DNA of 64,000 nt, taken from positions 1 through 64,000 of the forward strand of contig JAHCBA010000016.1 in NCBI GenBank assembly GCA_019634625.1, in the 5' to 3' direction. The notes beneath the pieces are model-generated. The model saw only the letters and a program-made list of their open reading frames with translations, did no database searches and was not told the DNA's origin. The position numbers and the translations under genes are program-made. Each line of letters starts with the position of its first letter. The stretch's first letter is position 1. This document shows positions 3,607-56,516 of this stretch, piece by piece. The stretch is from Verrucomicrobiia bacterium. Lineage in GTDB: Bacteria > Verrucomicrobiota > Verrucomicrobiia > Limisphaerales > CAIMTB01.

Positions 3607-5400
3607 TCAGGAAGCCATTTGCTGGAGGGCGTCGAGGTCGTGGCGCCGGGTGAACTCGATGAACGATTCGCCGGGGTGGCGCCGGTCCTGGTAGTGGAGG
3701 AGGAGCCGTTCGAGGAGCGGGGGGATCTGTTCGAAGGGAAGGGCGGTGAAGACCTGGCGGCCGATGCCGCTTTCGGCGCCGGTGCCGCCGCCGAGGACGA
3801 CGTGGTAGCCTTCGGCGGTGGCGCTGCCGGACGGGACCTTGACGCCCTGGAGGCCGATGTCGCCGACGTAGTGTTGGGCGCAGGAATTGGGGCAGCCGGT
3901 GAGGTGGATGTTGATGGGGCGGTCGAGGGCGACGCGGGGTTCGAGGTGCCGGGCGAGGGCGAGGGCATGGGCCTTGGTGGCGGTGGCGGCCCATTGGCAG
4001 CCGGCGTTGCCGGTGCAGGCGACCAGTCCGCCGGTGACGCTTTCGGCGCGGTGATGGAGTCCGATGCGGACGAGCTGGCGCTGGACGGTGGGGACGAAGG
4101 CGTCGGGGAGATCGGGGATGAGGACGTTCTGCCAGGGGGTGAGGCGGAGATGTCCGCTGCCGTAGTTGGCGGCGAGGTCGGCGAGGCGGCGCATCTGGCG
4201 GGAGGTGAGGATGCCGACGGGCACGACGACGCCGAGGTAGTTGAGGCCGGGCTGGCGCTGGCGATAGGTGCCGAGGTGACCGTGTTTGATGGCGGGGGAA
4301 CGGGGCTGGCAGCGATCGAGGGGGACGCGAAGAAGGGGGAAGGCGAGCTTCTTCTGGGTCTCCTCGAGGAATTTCGGGATGCCCCAGCGGTCCACGAGGT
4401 ACTTGAGGCGGGCCTTCTTGCGGTCGGTGCGGTCGCCATGGGCGATGAAGACGCGGATCATGGCGGCGGCGACGGCGACGGCCTGGGAGGGCGGGATGGC
4501 GAGGCCGGAGTCGGTGGCGAGCTGGCGATGGCCGGTGATGCCGCAGAGTTCGAGACGGAAGTGGACGCCGGGTTCGAGGGGGATGGGGGCGGGGTCGGAG
4601 AGGGGGGTGCCGGTGGTGTCCGGAGGGACGGTGACGGCCATGAAGCCGATGTCGTTGGTGTCGGCGACGGTGTCGATGGATCCGCCGCCCTCGAAGGCGA
4701 CGTTGAACTTGCGGGGAAGGTCGTAGAGGTCGCGGTGATTGAGGATGTAGTGGTGGAGGGCGTGGGCGTAGGGGCGGGTGTCGAGGAGTTCCTGGGGGTC
4801 GAAGCCGGCGGTGGGGGAGGCGGTGATGTTGCGGACGTTGTCCACGCCGGAGCCGCGGGAGGTGAGGCCGAGGGATTGGAGGCGGGTGACGACCTGGACG
4901 AGATGGCGCGGGGCGATGCCGCGGATCTGGAGATTGGAACGGGTGGTGACGGCGGCCTTGCCGTCGCCGAAGTCGTCGCTGAGTGCGGCCAGCCCGGTGA
5001 GTTGGGCGGCGGTGAGTTCGCCGGCAGGGATGCGGCAGCGGAGCATGAAGCTGTTCTGGGCGGGGGCGACGTAAAAGAGACCGTGGTACCGGAAGCGGAA
5101 GGTGTCGGCGGCGTCGGGGAAGCGGTTCTGTTCGGCGTGTTCAAGGAGGCGATCCCAGGCGTCGAGTCCGTGGAGTTCACGCTTCCAGAGTTCCTGGCGG
5201 GTGAGGTCGGAGATCGGGGTGCCATGGACGGTTTCCTCGGCGGGCGCAGCGAGGTTGGGTCCGCCGAGGTTGGAGTTGTCCGTCAGGGTGCCGGTATCGG
5301 GCAGTGCACCGACGTAGGGATAGAGCTGGCGCTGCGCGATGCCGGCGAGGAAGCCGGTGAGGTATTCTTTTTGTTCGGGGTTGAAGGTGGAGAGGGGCAT
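3607..5400 (-). CDS. nirA: NirA-type siroheme nitrite reductase
   Basis: 597 residues. Two nitrite/sulfite reductase half-domain pairs are seen. The siroheme/[4Fe-4S] ligands are the cysteines of CTGNAGC and, about 37 residues later, of TGCPNSCAQHYVGDIG. It catalyses six-electron reduction of nitrite to ammonium in the cytoplasm. The N-terminus EQKEYLTGFLAGIA resembles that of the neighbouring flavoprotein (EQRAYLNGFLAGL), which suggests the two assemble together. Classical NirA takes electrons from ferredoxin; the adjacent NADPH flavoprotein suggests another donor here. A sulfite reductase role is possible but less likely beside narB and nrtABCD. Confidence 0.88.
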   Translation of the reverse strand: MPLSTFNPEQKEYLTGFLAGIAQRQLYPYVGALPDTGTLTDNSNLGGPNLAAPAEETVHGTPISDLTRQELWKRELHGLDAWDRLLEHAEQNRFPDAADTFRFRYHGLFYVAPAQNSFMLRCRIPAGELTAAQLTGLAALSDDFGDGKAAVTTRSNLQIRGIAPRHLVQVVTRLQSLGLTSRGSGVDNVRNITASPTAGFDPQELLDTRPYAHALHHYILNHRDLYDLPRKFNVAFEGGGSIDTVADTNDIGFMAVTVPPDTTGTPLSDPAPIPLEPGVHFRLELCGITGHRQLATDSGLAIPPSQAVAVAAAMIRVFIAHGDRTDRKKARLKYLVDRWGIPKFLEETQKKLAFPLLRVPLDRCQPRSPAIKHGHLGTYRQRQPGLNYLGVVVPVGILTSRQMRRLADLAANYGSGHLRLTPWQNVLIPDLPDAFVPTVQRQLVRIGLHHRAESVTGGLVACTGNAGCQWAATATKAHALALARHLEPRVALDRPINIHLTGCPNSCAQHYVGDIGLQGVKVPSGSATAEGYHVVLGGGTGAESGIGRQVFTALPFEQIPPLLERLLLHYQDRRHPGESFIEFTRRHDLDALQQMAS

Positions 5401-39186: not shown

Positions 39187-39236
39187 CTCGTAATCGTAAT
39201 CGTAATCGTAATCGTAATCGTAATCGTAATCGTGCT
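39187..39236. repeat. GTAATC hexanucleotide tract
   Basis: Seven consecutive GTAATC units plus a degenerate one, about 60 nt upstream of the histidine kinase start. Confidence 0.92.
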
Positions 39237-39261
39237 CGCCGAATCCATGCGGTGTCGGTGC

Positions 39262-40651: not shown

Positions 40652-40932
40652 ATGAGGTTGTTCCTGTTGTTTTGCAATCGGCTGGGGTGCTTTGTGGTCC
40701 TGGGGCTCGGACTGAAGGTTTGGGGGCTCGAACGGGAGGCGGGGAGCGGGCTGGCATTTCCGCGGGTTCCGCCCCAGTTCGGGTACACGACGGTGCCGGC
40801 GTTTGAAGGGTTGGAGTTTGTGGATCCGGTGGCGATTGCGAGCCCGCCGGGCGAGACGAACCGGCTGTTTGTGGTGGAGCAGTTGGGGCGGGTCCAGGTG
40901 ATTCCGGACCTGACGACGCCGCGGGTGGAGAC
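40652..40932 (+). pseudogene. N-terminal fragment of a PQQ-dehydrogenase/cytochrome protein
   Basis: Starts with a signal peptide (about 1-25) and continues FEGLEFVDPVAIASPPGETN, then RLFVVEQLGRVQVIPDLTTP, which matches the N-terminus of the intact relative at 45894-50552 (PVAVAAPPGETNRIFVVERT). Homology ends at VET near 40932; the frame runs on through unrelated sequence to a stop at 41041. The C-terminal part of the same protein resumes at 44700. About 450 codons of the middle are absent. It is unlikely to be functional. Confidence 0.85.
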
Positions 40933-41406
40933 GAAAAGTTCGTCCTGCCGTTATTGGGGGCGCTGTCCGAGTGGTATGTTGCGCCACTTATGCTGCGGAT
41001 TAGTGCGCCGACCTGACAAGGCAAAGAGCGGCATTTCTTAACGGGCTGCTAACAGTGAATAGCCGAGCTAGGGGACATAACTCGATCGGGCAAAGGTGCT
41101 GGGCTTGCTGGCCACACGTACCTTGCAGTTGTTCTCTCCGTATCTCTTGCCGCTTGACAGAGTCGGGTGCGATCCTCGAAAGGAATTCTTGCCTTACAGT
41201 GGGATGGATCTAAGTCGAGGACGTCTGGCTCTACAGGAACCCTTGATCATCCGGCCATGGACCTAATCGCGAGTCGCTTCCAACTCGGCCCCGGTCCATG
41301 GCCAGATGGTATAGTGATATCTCTCTGATTCCGAACCAATGCAAACAAACCGACGAGGCGCCCTTTTCCGACACAATCGAGACGCCTCGACGGTCTAAGG
41401 CAGTAC
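40933..41406. other. Left flank of the inserted DNA, no gene
   Basis: Sequence of lower GC than its surroundings. No start-to-stop frame looks like a known protein. Several GACGAGGC/GCCTCGTC-type half-sites occur from about 41350 on, leading into the large hairpin. It begins at a 7-bp TGGAGAC (40926-40932), repeated at the right breakpoint (44700-44706). Confidence 0.6.
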
Positions 41407-41493
41407 CTAACGAGGCGCTGCCTCAGACCGACGAGGCATGTGGGTTGTTCTGACGTCAGGGGGCCTCGTCGGCCTGAGGCAGCGCCTCGTTAG
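41407..41493. repeat. Large hairpin upstream of the 534-aa gene
   Basis: Arms 41407-41437 and 41463-41493 are 31 bp each with a single mismatch; the outer 20 bp (CTAACGAGGCGCTGCCTCAG) are perfect. The loop is 25 nt. A weaker inverted pair (about 41499-41512 with 41551-41565) follows. It could be a mobile-element end, a protein-binding structure or an attenuator. Confidence 0.9.
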
Positions 41494-41631
41494 GAGATAA
41501 CCTTCGGTTCGCTGGAGCAGGGGGGGACTCCGCCGGCAGAGCCTAGGTCGAACCCGAAGGTTCGTGTTGTATTGACCGCGTGCGGCCGGTGGGCCATCGA
41601 ATTGGCCCGTTGTCCACCAACGGAGTCCGTC

Positions 41632-43236
41632 ATGGCCATACCACGCTCCGCCGCCGATGTCCTCAAGAATCACGTCACCTTCCAGATCGAGGGCATCGAC
41701 CGCATGTACCTCAACCTCTACGTCCCCTTGCTCCAGACCCCGGAAGGCGTCGCCCGCTTCTGGCGCTTCCATCGAGGTCATCGCTTCGCCTCCTCCGCTC
41801 TCATGGACCCCATGACCAAGGATTTCATCCACCGCCTCGAGCGCTTCGCGGCCCACCTCGCCATACCCCTCATCTCCTTCGAGAAGGGCCAGCGCAAGGA
41901 CGACGTCGCCAAGGCCTTCTTCGACGCCGCCTCTTTCGAGGAGGGCGTCGTCTTCATCGGCAAAGCCCAGGAGAAGTCCCGCGTCTTCCGCACCGAGCGT
42001 CGCCGCTCCCCCCATGGCCCCACCTACCCCTGGATCGTTCCTTCCTCCGCCATGGTCAACCAATGGTACATCTACATCCTCGATCGCGACTTCGGCCCCT
42101 TCTTCATCAAGTTCAGCAGCTACTTCCCCTACAACGCCAAGCTTTGTCTTAACGGTCACGAGTTCCTCAAGTGTCAGTTGCGCAACGCGGGCATCCCCTT
42201 CAAGCCCCTCGATAACGGGCTGGCCTCCTGCACCGATCCTCAAGCCGCCCAGGCTTTCGCCGATGGGCTCAGCGCCGAAAAGATTGACGCGCTGGTCCGC
42301 AAGTGGTTTGCGCGTCTGCCCCATCCCTTCACCCGCAAGGATCGCGCCGCCGGCTTTCGCTATCAGCTCTCCATCCTCCAGGCCGAATTCTCCCTCACCC
42401 AGGTCCTCGATCAACCCCTCCATGGCCGCGTCTTCTTCGAGGAGGTCATCCGCGAAAACCTCGACCTTGGCCGTCCCGATCAGGTCCAGCTCATTTTCGG
42501 TCGCTCCGTCAACCGACGCACCCCGGGTCGATTCCGCACCCGGGTGCTCACCCACGGCGTGATCCCGTCCCTGCACGTGGACTACAAGAAAAGCCGCATC
42601 AAACAATACCACAAGGAAGGTCAGGCTCTGCGGACCGAAACCACGATCAATGACACGCGTGACTTTGGCGTGGGCAAGAGCCTCAGGAACCTGCCGGCCC
42701 TCCGGCAGATCGGCTTCCAAGCCAACCGACGTCTTCTGGACGTCCAAAAAATCACGCAAGACTGCGCGCAGGGGGAGGCGGAACTGCGCCAGGTGACTGA
42801 GCCGGTCCAGGTCGAGGACCAGCGCGCCGCGGGGCTGCGCTTCGGACAGCAGCGGGTCCAGGCATTGCTGACGGCAATTCTCTGCTTCGCCCTCCAGGTC
42901 TGCGGGTTCACCAGTCGCGAGCTCCGGCAGCGTCTGGCCCCCCTGCTGGGCCTGGGCCTCGATCAACTCACCCAGGGCCGCATGACCTACGAGTTGCGCC
43001 GGCTCCGCCTCCACGGCCTCATCGAACGCATACCCAAGTCCCATCGCTATCGTCTCACCCGGCGGGGCATCGGCACAGCGTTGTTCTTCACGCGCACCTA
43101 CGCCCGGGTGCTCAGACCGGGTATGGCCCAGCTCATCCCTTCGCAGTGGGAGGGAGGCACTCCTTTGCGCCGTTCGTTCGATCGTCTCATGACAGAAATC
43201 GACCACCTTGTCTCTGATGCACATCTCAGCTCCTAA
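41632..43236 (+). CDS. Uncharacterised 534-aa protein of a probable mobile element
   Basis: 534 residues from ATG 41632. Start MAIPRSAADVLKNHVTFQIE; conserved-looking blocks are EGVVFIGKAQEKSRVFRTER (about 103), DFGPFFIKFSSYFPYNAKLC (about 151), CLNGHEFLKCQLRNAGIPF (about 170), FFEEVIRENLDLGRPDQVQL (about 268) and IKQYHKEGQALRTETTINDT (about 324). The last 130 residues look like a winged helix-turn-helix (GRMTYELRRLRLHGLIERIP). No signal or transmembrane segment. I recall similar unnamed proteins in repeated copies in other bacteria, but I cannot assign a family. A transposase or nuclease role is inference from the insertion context; catalytic residues are not identified. Confidence 0.7.
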   Translation: MAIPRSAADVLKNHVTFQIEGIDRMYLNLYVPLLQTPEGVARFWRFHRGHRFASSALMDPMTKDFIHRLERFAAHLAIPLISFEKGQRKDDVAKAFFDAASFEEGVVFIGKAQEKSRVFRTERRRSPHGPTYPWIVPSSAMVNQWYIYILDRDFGPFFIKFSSYFPYNAKLCLNGHEFLKCQLRNAGIPFKPLDNGLASCTDPQAAQAFADGLSAEKIDALVRKWFARLPHPFTRKDRAAGFRYQLSILQAEFSLTQVLDQPLHGRVFFEEVIRENLDLGRPDQVQLIFGRSVNRRTPGRFRTRVLTHGVIPSLHVDYKKSRIKQYHKEGQALRTETTINDTRDFGVGKSLRNLPALRQIGFQANRRLLDVQKITQDCAQGEAELRQVTEPVQVEDQRAAGLRFGQQRVQALLTAILCFALQVCGFTSRELRQRLAPLLGLGLDQLTQGRMTYELRRLRLHGLIERIPKSHRYRLTRRGIGTALFFTRTYARVLRPGMAQLIPSQWEGGTPLRRSFDRLMTEIDHLVSDAHLSS

Positions 43237-43280
43237 AACTTGACTCAAATCAGTCACATTTCAGAGGACAAGAAATCTAG

Positions 43281-44549
43281 TCAGTTGGGGAACCCAATTG
43301 CAGTTCCCGTAATGGTCCCTGTGGAGTCAATTTTCTTATTGTCATCAAAAGTATAGCTTCCGCTAACGTTGACGATATTAGTAAGGCCCTCGCTGATTCG
43401 ATTGGATTCAAAATTGAGATTGGATGGAACCCCTGATACGTTTTGCACAAGCACACCATATGGCTGGTTCGTTCCGCCTATAAAGCTCCGGATGGTATTA
43501 CCTACGACATTCCAGTCGCTTGCCAGATTGCCGTGCCAATGTAGCCCAGCAGAAGACGCAACATACAAATTGATCTCGTTGCCTTCAATTTCGCCGAAAC
43601 TGTTAGCGGAAAGAAACACCCCAGCTGCCGGTTGGGAATCACTCAAGTGAAACTGGTTGAATCCTACCGACAATGTGCCGCCAGCAGTTCCTGTATCGTG
43701 ATTGACTGCCCGATCGGCACCCCATACTTGATTCCAGTAGATATAGGTCTCACCGTGTGCGGCAACACCGAATGCAAACTCCCCCTCCTTTCCGTTCAGA
43801 TACACGCTATTGCCGAGGATAAATGCGGTAGGGTGGTACGTCGCAGTGCCGCTTACGTGAATTGCGGTGGTGTGGCCATATGTTGTTGGGTTGTAAAAGT
43901 CAGAGAATGTGCTGCTAGAAACCTCAACATGTGCGGACTTGGTTCTGCATCCGACCAAGATACCCCAGACTTCATCAGTTGCGCAGCCGGCGGCTGTACG
44001 TTCCGAAGCTGCGTTAATGACTTCCACGTTGTTGATGTAGGTGCCGTCCCCAAGCAATCTTATACCGCCTACTGTCAGGTAGGAAGTGCCGATGTTTGAC
44101 ATCACCTGCACAGCATTACAGTTAACAGTAAAATGCTGGAGTGTAACATTGTCTACATCGGGATCGCCACAATGCCCAGGGGCGCTCGCTAATACGTAGT
44201 TGAACCCAGTGGTTGAGGTGGAGCAGGAACTCAACGGAGCATCGACTAAGCGAATCTCCGTACCCCCTCCACCTGATCCAGTTCCGATGATGGTAAGTCC
44301 CTCCTTAAGCAAGAATCCGTCGTTTGGGGAGCATGCACCATTCCAAGCTCCCCTGGTTTCGAAGACTCCGGCCCCGAGAATCACAGTGTCATAGGCTGCG
44401 ACATTGGTGCGCATATACCCATCAAATGCGTAGGCACTTGGGAAGTTTGTGGAGTACAAGTAGTGTGTGGCACCATGGATTGGTGATATTGAGGCCAATG
44501 AGACGAAGGCAGCCACCATTGGGACGAGTTTGGCATGATTTCTGTGCAT
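43281..44549 (-). CDS. Secreted right-handed beta-helix protein (lower-GC, within inserted DNA)
   Basis: 422 residues; GGGAG lies about 10 nt before the ATG. Signal peptide at about 1-27 (AFVSLASISPIHGA). The body shows parallel beta-helix rungs (VGGIRLLGDGTYINNVEVIN; SSSTFSDF; NSVYLNGKEGEFAFGVAAHG; ANSFGEIEGNEINLYV). AVILGAGVFETRG-type sequence near 55 matches the native paralog at 55146-56390 (VITLLPGVFETYG). The fold is that of pectate lyases and phage tail spikes, but no catalytic set is clear. It has more Ser/Thr/Asn and much lower GC than its neighbours, which suggests transfer. It ends 44 nt from the convergent 534-aa gene. Confidence 0.72.
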   Translation of the reverse strand: MHRNHAKLVPMVAAFVSLASISPIHGATHYLYSTNFPSAYAFDGYMRTNVAAYDTVILGAGVFETRGAWNGACSPNDGFLLKEGLTIIGTGSGGGGTEIRLVDAPLSSCSTSTTGFNYVLASAPGHCGDPDVDNVTLQHFTVNCNAVQVMSNIGTSYLTVGGIRLLGDGTYINNVEVINAASERTAAGCATDEVWGILVGCRTKSAHVEVSSSTFSDFYNPTTYGHTTAIHVSGTATYHPTAFILGNSVYLNGKEGEFAFGVAAHGETYIYWNQVWGADRAVNHDTGTAGGTLSVGFNQFHLSDSQPAAGVFLSANSFGEIEGNEINLYVASSAGLHWHGNLASDWNVVGNTIRSFIGGTNQPYGVLVQNVSGVPSNLNFESNRISEGLTNIVNVSGSYTFDDNKKIDSTGTITGTAIGFPN

Positions 44550-44699
44550 TGCGTTATATCTCCCTATCGAGGTATGGACTTCGATGCCCGAGGTTCAGGT
44601 TGTGGTCTTCCTTGGCTTAGACTATTAAGCTGAGTGCTCCTCTGGCACGATTCCTGGGTAGTTTGCAGATGTTATACACATAGCGTCAACTGAAATTGT

Positions 44700-45805
44700 T
44701 GGAGACCGTGCGGGGCGACCCGGCGACGCGGCGGCGGCTGGAGACGCGGTTCGTGATCCAGCAGGAGGGCGGGGCGTACGGCTTGACGTACCGGTGGACG
44801 GACCCGCCGACCAACGCGGTGCTGGTGGCGGAGGAGGGATGGATCGAGGAGATCGCGATCCGGGATGGCGACGAGGAGATCCGGCAGGTGTGGGAGTATC
44901 CGAGCCGGGCGGATTGCCTGCGGTGCCACACCCCGGCGGCTGGTTGGGCCCTCGGATTCGGCACGCGGCAGCTCCAGCTCGACCTGTACACGGAGATCGG
45001 GATGACCAACCAGATCGCGCGATTGGCGGCCGCCGGGTATCTGGAGGAGGCGCCGGCGTCGTATGCCGGTTTGCCGGCCCTGGCGCGGATCGACGACGAG
45101 GAGGCCGGCGTGGAATGGCGGGCGCGGTCGTGGCTCGACGCGAACTGTTCGCAATGTCACCGGCCGGGAGGTCCGGCCATCGGCAACTGGGATGCACGGG
45201 CGGTGAATCCCCTGTTCGACACCGGGATCATCCGGGGTTTCCTGCACAACTTCGAGGAGGATGCCAGTGCCCGGGTGGTGCTGCCTGGATCGACGGAGCA
45301 TTCGATGATGCTGCGGCGGGTCGGGTTGCTGGGGGAACGCCGGATGCCGCCGCTGGCGAGCCGGGTGGTGGACGAGGCGGCGGTGGCGCTGTTGAGCCGA
45401 TGGATCGCCGAGGATCTGCCGTCGCGACAGAGTTACGCCGAGTGGAAGGTCACCCATTTTGGATCGACTCAGGTGCCCGAGGCGGCAGACGACGCGGACG
45501 GCGACGGGGACGGGGCGGTGAATCGTTTGGAGTTCCTGACCTACACCGATCCGAAGGATGCCGGCGAGGCCTGGCGGATGGCCGTGGTACGGAGCGCCGG
45601 CGGCGTGCGGTTGCAGTATCCGCATCTGCCGCACCGGGCGTTCCTAGTGGAGTGGACGCGGGATCCGTCGGACCCGTCGTCGTGGCTGCCGGTGGAGTCC
45701 CCGGCGAACCGCCATCGGATCGTGGATGCGCCTTTCCTGGCGGATTTCGAGCCTCCCTTTCCCGAGGGGTCGGTGTTCTACCGGGTCCGGGTGGAGGAAC
45801 GGTAG
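44700..45805 (+). pseudogene. C-terminal fragment of the same PQQ/cytochrome protein
   Basis: Homology to the intact relative resumes exactly here (ETVRGDPATRRRLETRFVIQ against GRRLETRLLVRTESGAYGVT). Two haem-binding CxxCH motifs remain (CLRCH and CSQCH), then a calcium-loop-like DADGDGDGAVNRLEF and a C-terminal beta domain. There is no signal peptide or start of its own; TTG at 44696 opens the frame but translation is doubtful. Together with 40652-40932 it forms one gene cut by deletion and insertion. Confidence 0.85.
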
Positions 45806-55145: not shown

Positions 55146-56390
55146 TTATCGGGGGGCTTGGACCGGTCGATTGCGGAGATCGACGTTGGCCCGCCAGGTG
55201 TCGAATTTTGCGGCGCTGGGGTCGTGGCGGAGGCGGGGATCGATCCGGTTGCCGACAAACTGACAGCCCGGCACCGGGACGCCGCGGAAGAAGCGGACGA
55301 CCATGGGAGTGCCGGACCGGGCGCGGAAGGTGTTGTTGCGGATGATCCAGGCGCCGGCCCCGGGGAAGATCTCGTTGCGGGCGCTGATCTGGACGCCGAG
55401 GGCGTTGGGGCCGGCGAGTTCGATCACATTGTCCTCGACGATCGAATCTCCGCCGCCCCCGAGGGTCAGGGCCCAGCCGGTGCATTGCAGGAACTGATTG
55501 TTGCGGATGGTCAGGTCCCGTCCGGGGGCTGCGGTGTCCCAGTTGAAGGCGCGGGCCGCTTGACGGGTGACATTGTGCTCGATGACGAACCCGCCGGCCC
55601 CGTAGGCGCTGAAGCCGAATTCCCCGCCGGTGCCGCCGAGGACAACCCGATTGCGACGCAAGGCGCCCGTGGCGCCGTTGCGGCCGCCGGTCCCGAGGAG
55701 GGCGATGGCGGTGACGCTTCCGCCGGCGAAGGAGGATACTTCGCAGTCCTCGACGAAGTAGCCGGTGGCGTCGGTGGAGTCGTCCCGCGGGCTCAGCGCG
55801 ATGACGAAGCATTCGGGATTGCCGCCGGGCAGGGTGCGTCGGCCGAGGGCGTTGATGGCCTTGATCCGTTCGACCCGGTGTTCGCGGCCCATGAGGAAGA
55901 CGGCGGACAGGGTGAGGTCATCGGCCTTCATGCGGGCGCGGACGCCCCGTTCATTGCAGTCCACGGTAAGATCGCGGAGCACGACGCGTTCAACGCCGGG
56001 TCCCCAACCGGAGAAGAAGACCCGGCCCACGCCGGATCCCGGGTGCTGGTCCAGGATGCAACCGACGAGGCGGACGGTGGTGCGATGGATGCCGGCGCCC
56101 TGGACGGTCCAACCATTCTTCACGAAGAAGCCGGGCTGGCCGGGGGCGCCGGATCCGTAGGTTTCGAAGACACCGGGGAGGAGGGTGATGACGGAGTTGG
56201 TGGGGATGGCACGGAGCCGGGCGTCGAAATCTTCGGGCTGGGAGACGATCCACGGGTCGGATTGGGAACCGGAACCGCCGGGTGTGCGTCCGGGCTGAAG
56301 CCAGAAGGCATTGGTGCCTGCGAAGGAGCTGCTGGAGGAGAGGAGGAGGGCCAGGGCGGCCAGGGCGTGGAGAGGGAAGGCGGGGTGCAT
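55146..56390 (-). CDS. Secreted right-handed beta-helix protein
   Basis: 414 residues from ATG 56390; earlier in-frame codons only translate the 12-nt tandem repeat. Signal peptide at about 1-25 (ALAALALLLSSSSSFAG). Beta-helix rungs are clear (VERVVLRDLTVDCNERGVRA; YFVEDCEVSSFAGG; FVIEHNVTRQAARAFNWDTA; SIVEDNVIELAGPNALGVQI). It is a paralog of the protein at 43281-44549. The fold is common in polysaccharide lyases and surface adhesins; no catalytic residues can be assigned. Its GC content matches the genome, unlike its paralog. Confidence 0.75.
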   Translation of the reverse strand: MHPAFPLHALAALALLLSSSSSFAGTNAFWLQPGRTPGGSGSQSDPWIVSQPEDFDARLRAIPTNSVITLLPGVFETYGSGAPGQPGFFVKNGWTVQGAGIHRTTVRLVGCILDQHPGSGVGRVFFSGWGPGVERVVLRDLTVDCNERGVRARMKADDLTLSAVFLMGREHRVERIKAINALGRRTLPGGNPECFVIALSPRDDSTDATGYFVEDCEVSSFAGGSVTAIALLGTGGRNGATGALRRNRVVLGGTGGEFGFSAYGAGGFVIEHNVTRQAARAFNWDTAAPGRDLTIRNNQFLQCTGWALTLGGGGDSIVEDNVIELAGPNALGVQISARNEIFPGAGAWIIRNNTFRARSGTPMVVRFFRGVPVPGCQFVGNRIDPRLRHDPSAAKFDTWRANVDLRNRPVQAPR

Positions 56391-56418
56391 GGTTGGAGGA
56401 GAGGATGAGGGCACCCAT

Positions 56419-56516
56419 GGTGGTGGCAAGGGTGGTGGCAAGGGTGGTGGCAAGGGTGGTGGCAAGGGTGGTGGCAAGGGTGGTGGCAAGGGTGGTGGCA
56501 AGGGTGGTGGCAAGTA
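56419..56516. repeat. 12-nt tandem repeat
   Basis: About eight copies of AAGGGTGGTGGC directly upstream of the beta-helix gene's start. Being a multiple of three it stays open in frame, but it lies outside the chosen start. Confidence 0.92.

Follow-up and report, generated by a model that had tools for sequence, protein, structure and literature searches.

We describe here a 1,870-bp mobile element that, on our best reading, is an insertion sequence of an undescribed family. It occupies positions 41410 to 43279 (+ strand) of a 64,000-nucleotide stretch of DNA (contig JAHCBA010000016.1 of assembly GCA_019634625.1; hereafter the window) from a Verrucomicrobiia bacterium, where it lies in a block of foreign DNA that separates the two pieces of a broken dehydrogenase gene. 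The element encodes a 534-residue protein, P0001, and we consider it quite probable that the family is moved by a non-HUH single-strand nickase resembling the Rep_trans enzymes, the chemistry being proposed from predicted structure.

Ends, copies and target site

An earlier note on this DNA, made by a model from the letters, had listed a large hairpin and an uncharacterised protein as separate items. Both are real, but they are parts of one mobile element with defined ends, which that note missed. The hairpin, whose 32-nt arms (41406-41437 and 41463-41494) match at 97%, forms the left end of the element, a palindrome at 41406-41494 (+ strand; core CTAACGAGGCnnnGCCTCAGACCGACGAG) that recurs nearly unchanged at the end of contig C25 and on contig C10 of the same genome (G000). 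The right end, at 43239-43280 (+ strand), consists of a CTTGACTC...GAGGACAAG hairpin and then AAATCTAG. When copies are compared, they share an abrupt left end at CTAACGAGGCnnnGCCTCAGACCGACGAG and a right end of the form AAACTTGACTC...(hairpin)...CTAG, and everything outside differs; the left end is conserved in 18 copies and the right end in more than 20, all with unrelated flanks, and both ends are common to copies in at least five phyla. The layout is CTA^A-CG-hairpin on the left and hairpin-nnnn-CTA^G on the right (^, proposed cut). Terminal inverted repeats are absent, in that the two ends are not inverted copies of each other and have only CTA(G) in common. A two-sided change in the left hairpin, from GAGGC/GCCTC to GGGGC/GCCCC, preserves its pairing; it is seen in Rhodococcus and also in L101. 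An independent RNA gene was also considered for the hairpin and dropped, as the copies show it to be a transposon end; a search of Rfam matched it only to chance microRNA models.

In a tblastn search of GTDB contigs, 24 loci were found to encode the protein, with 53-78% identity over the best segment; they come from Acidobacteriota, Beta-, Alpha- and Gammaproteobacteria, Planctomycetota, Actinomycetota and a Capsulimonadaceae metagenome-assembled genome (Armatimonadota-type); many of these loci are broken at contig ends, as is typical of repeats. The consensus of both ends is kept in copies whose proteins are only 53-66% identical, from Acidobacteriota, Pseudomonadota, Actinomycetota, Planctomycetota, the Capsulimonadaceae genome and the genome studied here. 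Plasmids of Rhodococcus, Mycobacterium, Caballeronia and Paraburkholderia also carry the protein, which is there called 'hypothetical protein' or left unannotated; no copies were found in viral contigs and phages. Several copies can occupy one genome, as in Caballeronia arationis (at least three to four, from four right-end and three to four left-end contigs) and Paraburkholderia elongata. On plasmid pRB98 of Rhodococcus oxybenzonivorans (L082:5583-8259) the left and right ends face inverted copies of the same TTGCAGTACTA, an arrangement that suggests a preferred or repeated target in Rhodococcus.

In the genome studied here, contig C25 ends inside a second left end (G000:C25:102176-102294, L034; 98% identical), so that at least one further copy of the element is probably present in the genome and broke the assembly there. 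Solo or decayed left-end palindromes are found at C10, at C31 and directly beside the intact element, where a decayed, inverted copy lies at 41346-41408. These suggest that solo palindromes, comparable to MITE or REP sequences, have spread in this genome.

Mobility of the element is supported by empty sites recovered in sequence comparisons. When 146 Paraburkholderia genomes were searched with the joined flanks of one copy as the query, 25 had a match, and many of these span the insertion site uninterrupted. We inspected 14 loci: nine have a single CTAG at the exact position of the element copy L039 (e.g. GAACA-CTAG-CGCGG), and the remaining five have a near variant (CCAG, CGAG or TCAG). The filled site reads CCA^GCGAGG...CTA^G. 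A second empty site, from Caballeronia (G747), reads ATTATGT-CTAG-ATGTATT, with a right flank identical over 100 bp. No empty site emerged when plasmids were searched with the two flanks of the P. aromaticivorans copy put together. All boundaries fit one rule, namely a cut after CTA at the left end, at the right end and in the target, and copies within one genome have flanks with nothing in common beyond CTAG. It is by applying this rule to the window that the element is delimited as 41410 to 43279, preceded by the left CTA of its CTAG insertion site at 41407-41409 (+ strand); this boundary agrees with the one common to the 18 copies and with the empty sites.

The element protein and its predicted fold

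The gene for P0001 lies at 41632-43236 (+ strand). Between close pairs of copies dN/dS is 0.12-0.15, indicating that P0001 is under purifying selection as a protein. A 616-codon antisense frame (41407-43257, minus strand) is most likely a by-product of GC-rich codons, the dN/dS values favoring the plus-strand frame. P0001 has no family match in Pfam, NCBIfam (above cut-off), PHROGs or PADLOC, and profile searches of PDB sequences gave no relative. With respect to Rep_trans (PF02486) specifically, there was no match for P0001 at E 1, nor for any of 17 members of its family at E 10. Rep_trans was also absent from 58 relatives and so is not a resident family.

A first model of the full-length protein matched only winged-helix proteins, at residues 378-514. 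As these matches filled the list, residues 1-372 had to be modelled alone, and the resulting AlphaFold2 model has a pLDDT of 79.5 and a pTM of 0.82. The first 24 matches in VIA-align are 21 TATA-binding proteins (TBPs; Z 6.1-7.8) and three Rep_trans structures (4cwc, 4cij and 4cwe; Z 6.5-6.6), and the next match has Z 5.8; the aligned spans are 162-178 residues over all 24 and 170-178 for the three Rep_trans structures. A search of BFVD likewise ranks TBPs high, although its matches are not significant; among them is A0A2N9QVX7, one of the entries that exposed an archaeal relative of Rep_trans (PMC13107129). We read P0001 as a putative TBP/Rep_trans-like nickase domain (1-372) joined to a winged helix (378-514).

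In the published active site of Rep_trans, strand 1 contributes an Asp and strand 6 an RxD motif, the nucleophile belongs to RxYxK on strand 10, and strand 11 carries RxE (PMC4797284; PMC5714925). Among 15 diverged members of the P0001 family, down to 23-25% identity, we found that: (i) E252 (in QxE), K324-x-Y326-x-K328 and L333-R334-x-E336 are present in every member; (ii) D23 is present in 13, the two exceptions being damaged copies; and (iii) in the model, D23 is placed on strand 1, and the second half opens with the strand bearing QxE252 and closes with the two that bear KxY326xK and LRxE336. The metal and nucleophile pattern thus follows the same strand order as in Rep_trans, with the conservative changes of K for R and E for D. 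That invariant residues fall in this order raises our confidence in the fold, for which Z values below 8 could mislead if taken alone. Motif II (T/SxY/ExG) is absent, the corresponding strand (313-318, SLHVDY) not being conserved in distant members. Given this absence and the lack of a PF02486 match, we do not file P0001 as a member of Rep_trans but propose that it works like one.

Two distant members of the transposase family (L087:4760-6421 and L088:2941-4455) have the same catalytic residues. One is found on a plasmid of Mycobacterium riyadhense, with a closer member next to it, and one is annotated as an ArsR regulator; they may represent further element families.

Proposed mechanism

A plausible scenario is that P0001 acts as a single-strand nickase of TBP-like (Rep_trans-type) fold in which Tyr326 would be the residue that attacks the DNA after CTA, Asp23, Glu252 and Glu336 would hold a metal, and Lys324, Lys328 and Arg334 would assist. 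Cuts would be made at CTA^ at either end of the element and at CTA^G in the target, the hairpins marking the ends and the winged helix binding them, and the strand would be joined into the target by a rolling-circle or an excise-and-insert route, much as with HUH transposases. By analogy, the mechanism most likely parallels that of IS200/IS605, IS91 and Helitrons, carried out by a different enzyme. The ends, the family, the target, the copy number, the RNA fold and the purifying selection are shown here; the fold class, the catalytic residues, the single-strand pathway and the function of the leader described below are what we infer.

We also considered that the element is a true insertion sequence whose fold has been mispredicted, with a DDE-type or other double-strand transposase whose DDE-like triad would consist of D23, E252 and E336 (or D151), CTA then being a 3-bp target duplication. 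The presence of CTA on both sides of the element and the three conserved acids would be consistent with this. However, the terminal inverted repeats and fixed-length target duplication typical of DDE insertion sequences are missing, hairpins are found at both ends, no DDE family in Pfam or NCBIfam matches, the predicted topology is TBP-like rather than RNase H, and the invariant KxYxK would stay unexplained; we therefore regard such an enzyme as unlikely. Nor does P0001 have the HUH metal motif, as there is no invariant histidine in the 15 members and no match to an HUH family, and the DEDD and Tnp20 domains of IS110 gave no Pfam match at E 1.

Several observations weigh against a Rep_trans-like nickase and against parts of our account of the locus. 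With regard to the fold, no Foldseek match reaches E 0.001 in either structure search (BFVD included), Z values of 6.5-7.8 are within the range reachable by unrelated models, the alignment behind the AlphaFold2 model is shallow (21 rows), and profile-profile comparison by hhalign with RepC and three Rep_trans sequences gave no similarity. With regard to movement, the support for transposition comes wholly from comparing sequences, the base that follows CTA is not constant (A, C or G), and the left flank of L039 is CCAG instead of CTA, the right side being CTA-G. The last of these fits an origin of the right CTA from the element itself, the empty site being CCAG in some relatives, or alternatively a mutation. 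Finally, the outer junctions of the foreign block, at 40932 and 44700, are read from assembled sequence.

A structured RNA leader

Between the left end and the gene, at 41526-41627 (+ strand), we predict a structured leader RNA made up of a closing stem and three hairpins, with the stem covering a GGAG ribosome-binding site. A similar architecture was seen in the 12 sequences checked, which have a closing stem with usually three hairpins even though their primary sequence is almost wholly different between lineages; their free energies lie 2.5 to 6.1 standard deviations below those of dinucleotide shuffles (z -2.5 to -6.1). In 11 of the 12, the closing stem has GGAG in its 3' strand, 10-14 nt upstream of the start codon. 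The arrangement is not uniform, since the leader of the L040/L055 lineage may include the start codon. The simplest function would be to hide the ribosome-binding site, and in this way the folded leader may keep transposase levels low.

A multi-hairpin RNA conserved between left end and reading frame in all lineages could also be indicative of an RNA-guided element, comparable to IS110 or IscB/TnpB, in which the leader would be a guide that pairs with target DNA. We think this very improbable: the flanks of copies in one genome are alike only in CTAG, the RNA reaches as far as the Shine-Dalgarno sequence and covers it, and there is no match to a DEDD, RuvC or HNH family.

History of the locus

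The broken gene encodes a fusion of a GSDH-type pyrroloquinoline quinone (PQQ) dehydrogenase with a TIGR03806 diheme cytochrome. Its 5' fragment lies at 40652-40932 (+ strand; residues 4-90 aligned by tblastn) and its 3' fragment, which holds the TIGR03806 part (E 7e-40), at 44700-45805 (+ strand), with 3,767 bp between them. Both fragments align, in one reading frame, to single intact open reading frames in a same-genus genome (L038) and in a paralogue in the window's own genome (L037), at 51-52% identity for the N-terminal part and 53-56% for the C-terminal part (56% to L037). The earlier claim that they are halves of one gene is thus borne out, and the loss of the middle is real, since two intact relatives hold both pieces in a single frame. 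The earlier figure of about 450 missing codons was close; there are 419 codons between the parts in L038 (N part ending at nt 2721, C part starting at 3979) and 426 in L037. Intact relatives were therefore found, but none in the same neighbourhood: the neighbours of the intact relatives are not conserved, and an orthologous intact locus of the host gene was sought without success.

The block between the gene pieces is composite, consisting of approximately 1.9 kb of low-GC DNA in which the element, making up only half of the 3.8 kb, is nested. GC content is 54.7% in the left part (40933-41409, which holds the decayed end palindrome at ~41346-41408), 62.3% in the element and 50.1% in the right part (43280-44699), as against 65-69% in the parts of the dehydrogenase gene, in agreement with the lower GC reported earlier. 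The right part carries P0002 (43281-44549, minus strand; 50% GC), an orphan beta-helix-like gene with a probably secreted product, whose stop codon abuts the element. Relatives of this protein are only about 32% identical, one of them 11 kb away in the window; that second gene (55146-56513) has normal GC and a relative in the same genus (L166) at 60% identity. Of the 3.8-kb segment, for which the earlier note advised a search elsewhere, the element is present in other genomes; the source of the low-GC beta-helix gene was searched for and not found.

As the earlier note reasoned, a plain insertion cannot explain a locus in which the middle of the gene is absent and replaced. Of its two suggestions, two insertions with a deletion or a replacement by recombination at 7-bp homology, the need for at least two events stands, because a complete element is nested in an otherwise low-GC segment, as does the replacement; the homology route is only possible. 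The 7-bp TGGAGAC does occur where it was placed, at the 5' junction (40926-40932, + strand) and at 44700, where the 3' fragment begins, and in the same reading phase (V-E-T and L-E-T). It recurs, however, at 44739 and has 12 copies on the + strand of the window, and random 20-nt zones from the two gene parts have a 7-mer in common in 3% of pairs. With this chance background, and with no orthologous intact locus found, TGGAGAC is no proof of a microhomology-driven exchange and is suggestive only.

Our working model is that a low-GC segment of about 1.9 kb with the orphan beta-helix gene replaced the middle of the dehydrogenase gene, with a loss of some 420 codons, and that, independently, the element jumped into a CTAG directly behind the beta-helix gene. 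The nesting indicates that the element entered the beta-helix segment and not the dehydrogenase gene, and its position at its own CTAG, directly behind the beta-helix stop codon, that it did not make the TGGAGAC junctions. One could instead suppose that the element itself produced the replacement, by one-ended or imprecise transposition carrying beta-helix DNA, since that DNA directly abuts its right end and rolling-circle elements are known to take adjacent DNA along with them (PMC5714925). This seems doubtful to us, as foreign DNA flanks the element on both sides, both its ends are intact, and the outer junctions carry TGGAGAC in place of CTAG or element ends.

The block might also be a metagenome misassembly or contamination within an intact gene. 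The genome is a 6.7-Mb draft in 88 contigs (97% complete), and the element is a repeat with another copy at a contig end. On the other hand, an assembler needs more than 7 bp of overlap to make a join, contamination is 0.42%, and the block would still have to replace 1.26 kb. Near-identical copies of the left end, together with decayed forms, occur elsewhere in this genome, which makes a misassembly less likely; we give it a slim chance.

Apart from the locus, a short simple repeat (translating as DYDYDY or RNRNRN) lies at about 39190-39260, at the start of a histidine kinase-like open reading frame.

Comparison with known systems

The known transposase chemistries are few (DDE, HUH, serine, tyrosine and DEDD), and the Rep_trans fold has its known uses in plasmid replication, filamentous phages and conjugation, to which archaeal viruses were added in 2026. 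In the literature we found no use of this fold by a transposon. Nor did literature and library searches (ISfinder being outside the comparison) give a family model, annotation or paper describing such a transposon or such a nickase as a transposase. We lean toward the view that P0001 represents a new transposase class, that is, a tyrosine nickase without the HUH motif, belonging to the TBP-like/Rep_trans superfamily, that carries out single-strand transposition of small, hairpin-ended, CTAG-targeting elements in many bacterial phyla, with an RNA leader gating its own translation. If so, transposition would join the roles of the Rep_trans superfamily, a protein called 'hypothetical' in many soil bacteria and plasmids would be explained, and the ends and target site would let annotators recognise the element.

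Among known enzymes, Rep_trans proteins (pT181-type initiators, RepDE/RepSTK1 and MOB_T relaxases) resemble P0001 in a TBP-like fold, predicted for P0001 by model comparison, and in having an Asp on strand 1, an acid on the strand that opens the second half, and (R/K)xYxK followed by RxE on the two final strands. Staphylococcal members also have a helix-turn-helix-type DNA-binding domain behind the catalytic part, and hairpin substrates would be common to both systems. P0001 differs in having no detectable sequence similarity to them, no motif II (TxYxG) and Q for R in motif I, and in residing in a transposable element rather than a replicon or an integrative and conjugative element. Rep-Arvir (PF25227, DUF7845) offers a close parallel: like the arrangement predicted for P0001, it has a TBP-like catalytic part of about 300 residues followed by a winged helix, a DNA hairpin beside its gene and a relation to Rep_trans visible only in structure, and evidence of this kind led to its recognition in 2026 (PMC13107129). 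Rep-Arvir, however, serves the replication of archaeal viruses and plasmids, not transposition, and PF25227 did not match P0001 in the Pfam scan.

Among transposons, IS200/IS605 (HUH Y1) and the REP/TnpA-REP system likewise have subterminal hairpins, palindromic solo copies, no inverted repeats and a short target sequence that is also present at the far end; the present transposase is set apart by its 534 residues without an HUH motif, its different fold and the CTA^G site. IS110 is similar in its structured RNA between left end and reading frame and in lacking inverted repeats, whereas the element has no DEDD/Tnp20 domain and no extended target specificity, and its leader covers the ribosome-binding site. 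IS91 and Helitrons (HUH Y2) lack inverted repeats as well and have a hairpin near the 3' end and a short fixed target, the CTRR at the Helitron 3' end being much like the CTAG here, but the element dispenses with both HUH motif and helicase and has a single invariant tyrosine in a YxK context.

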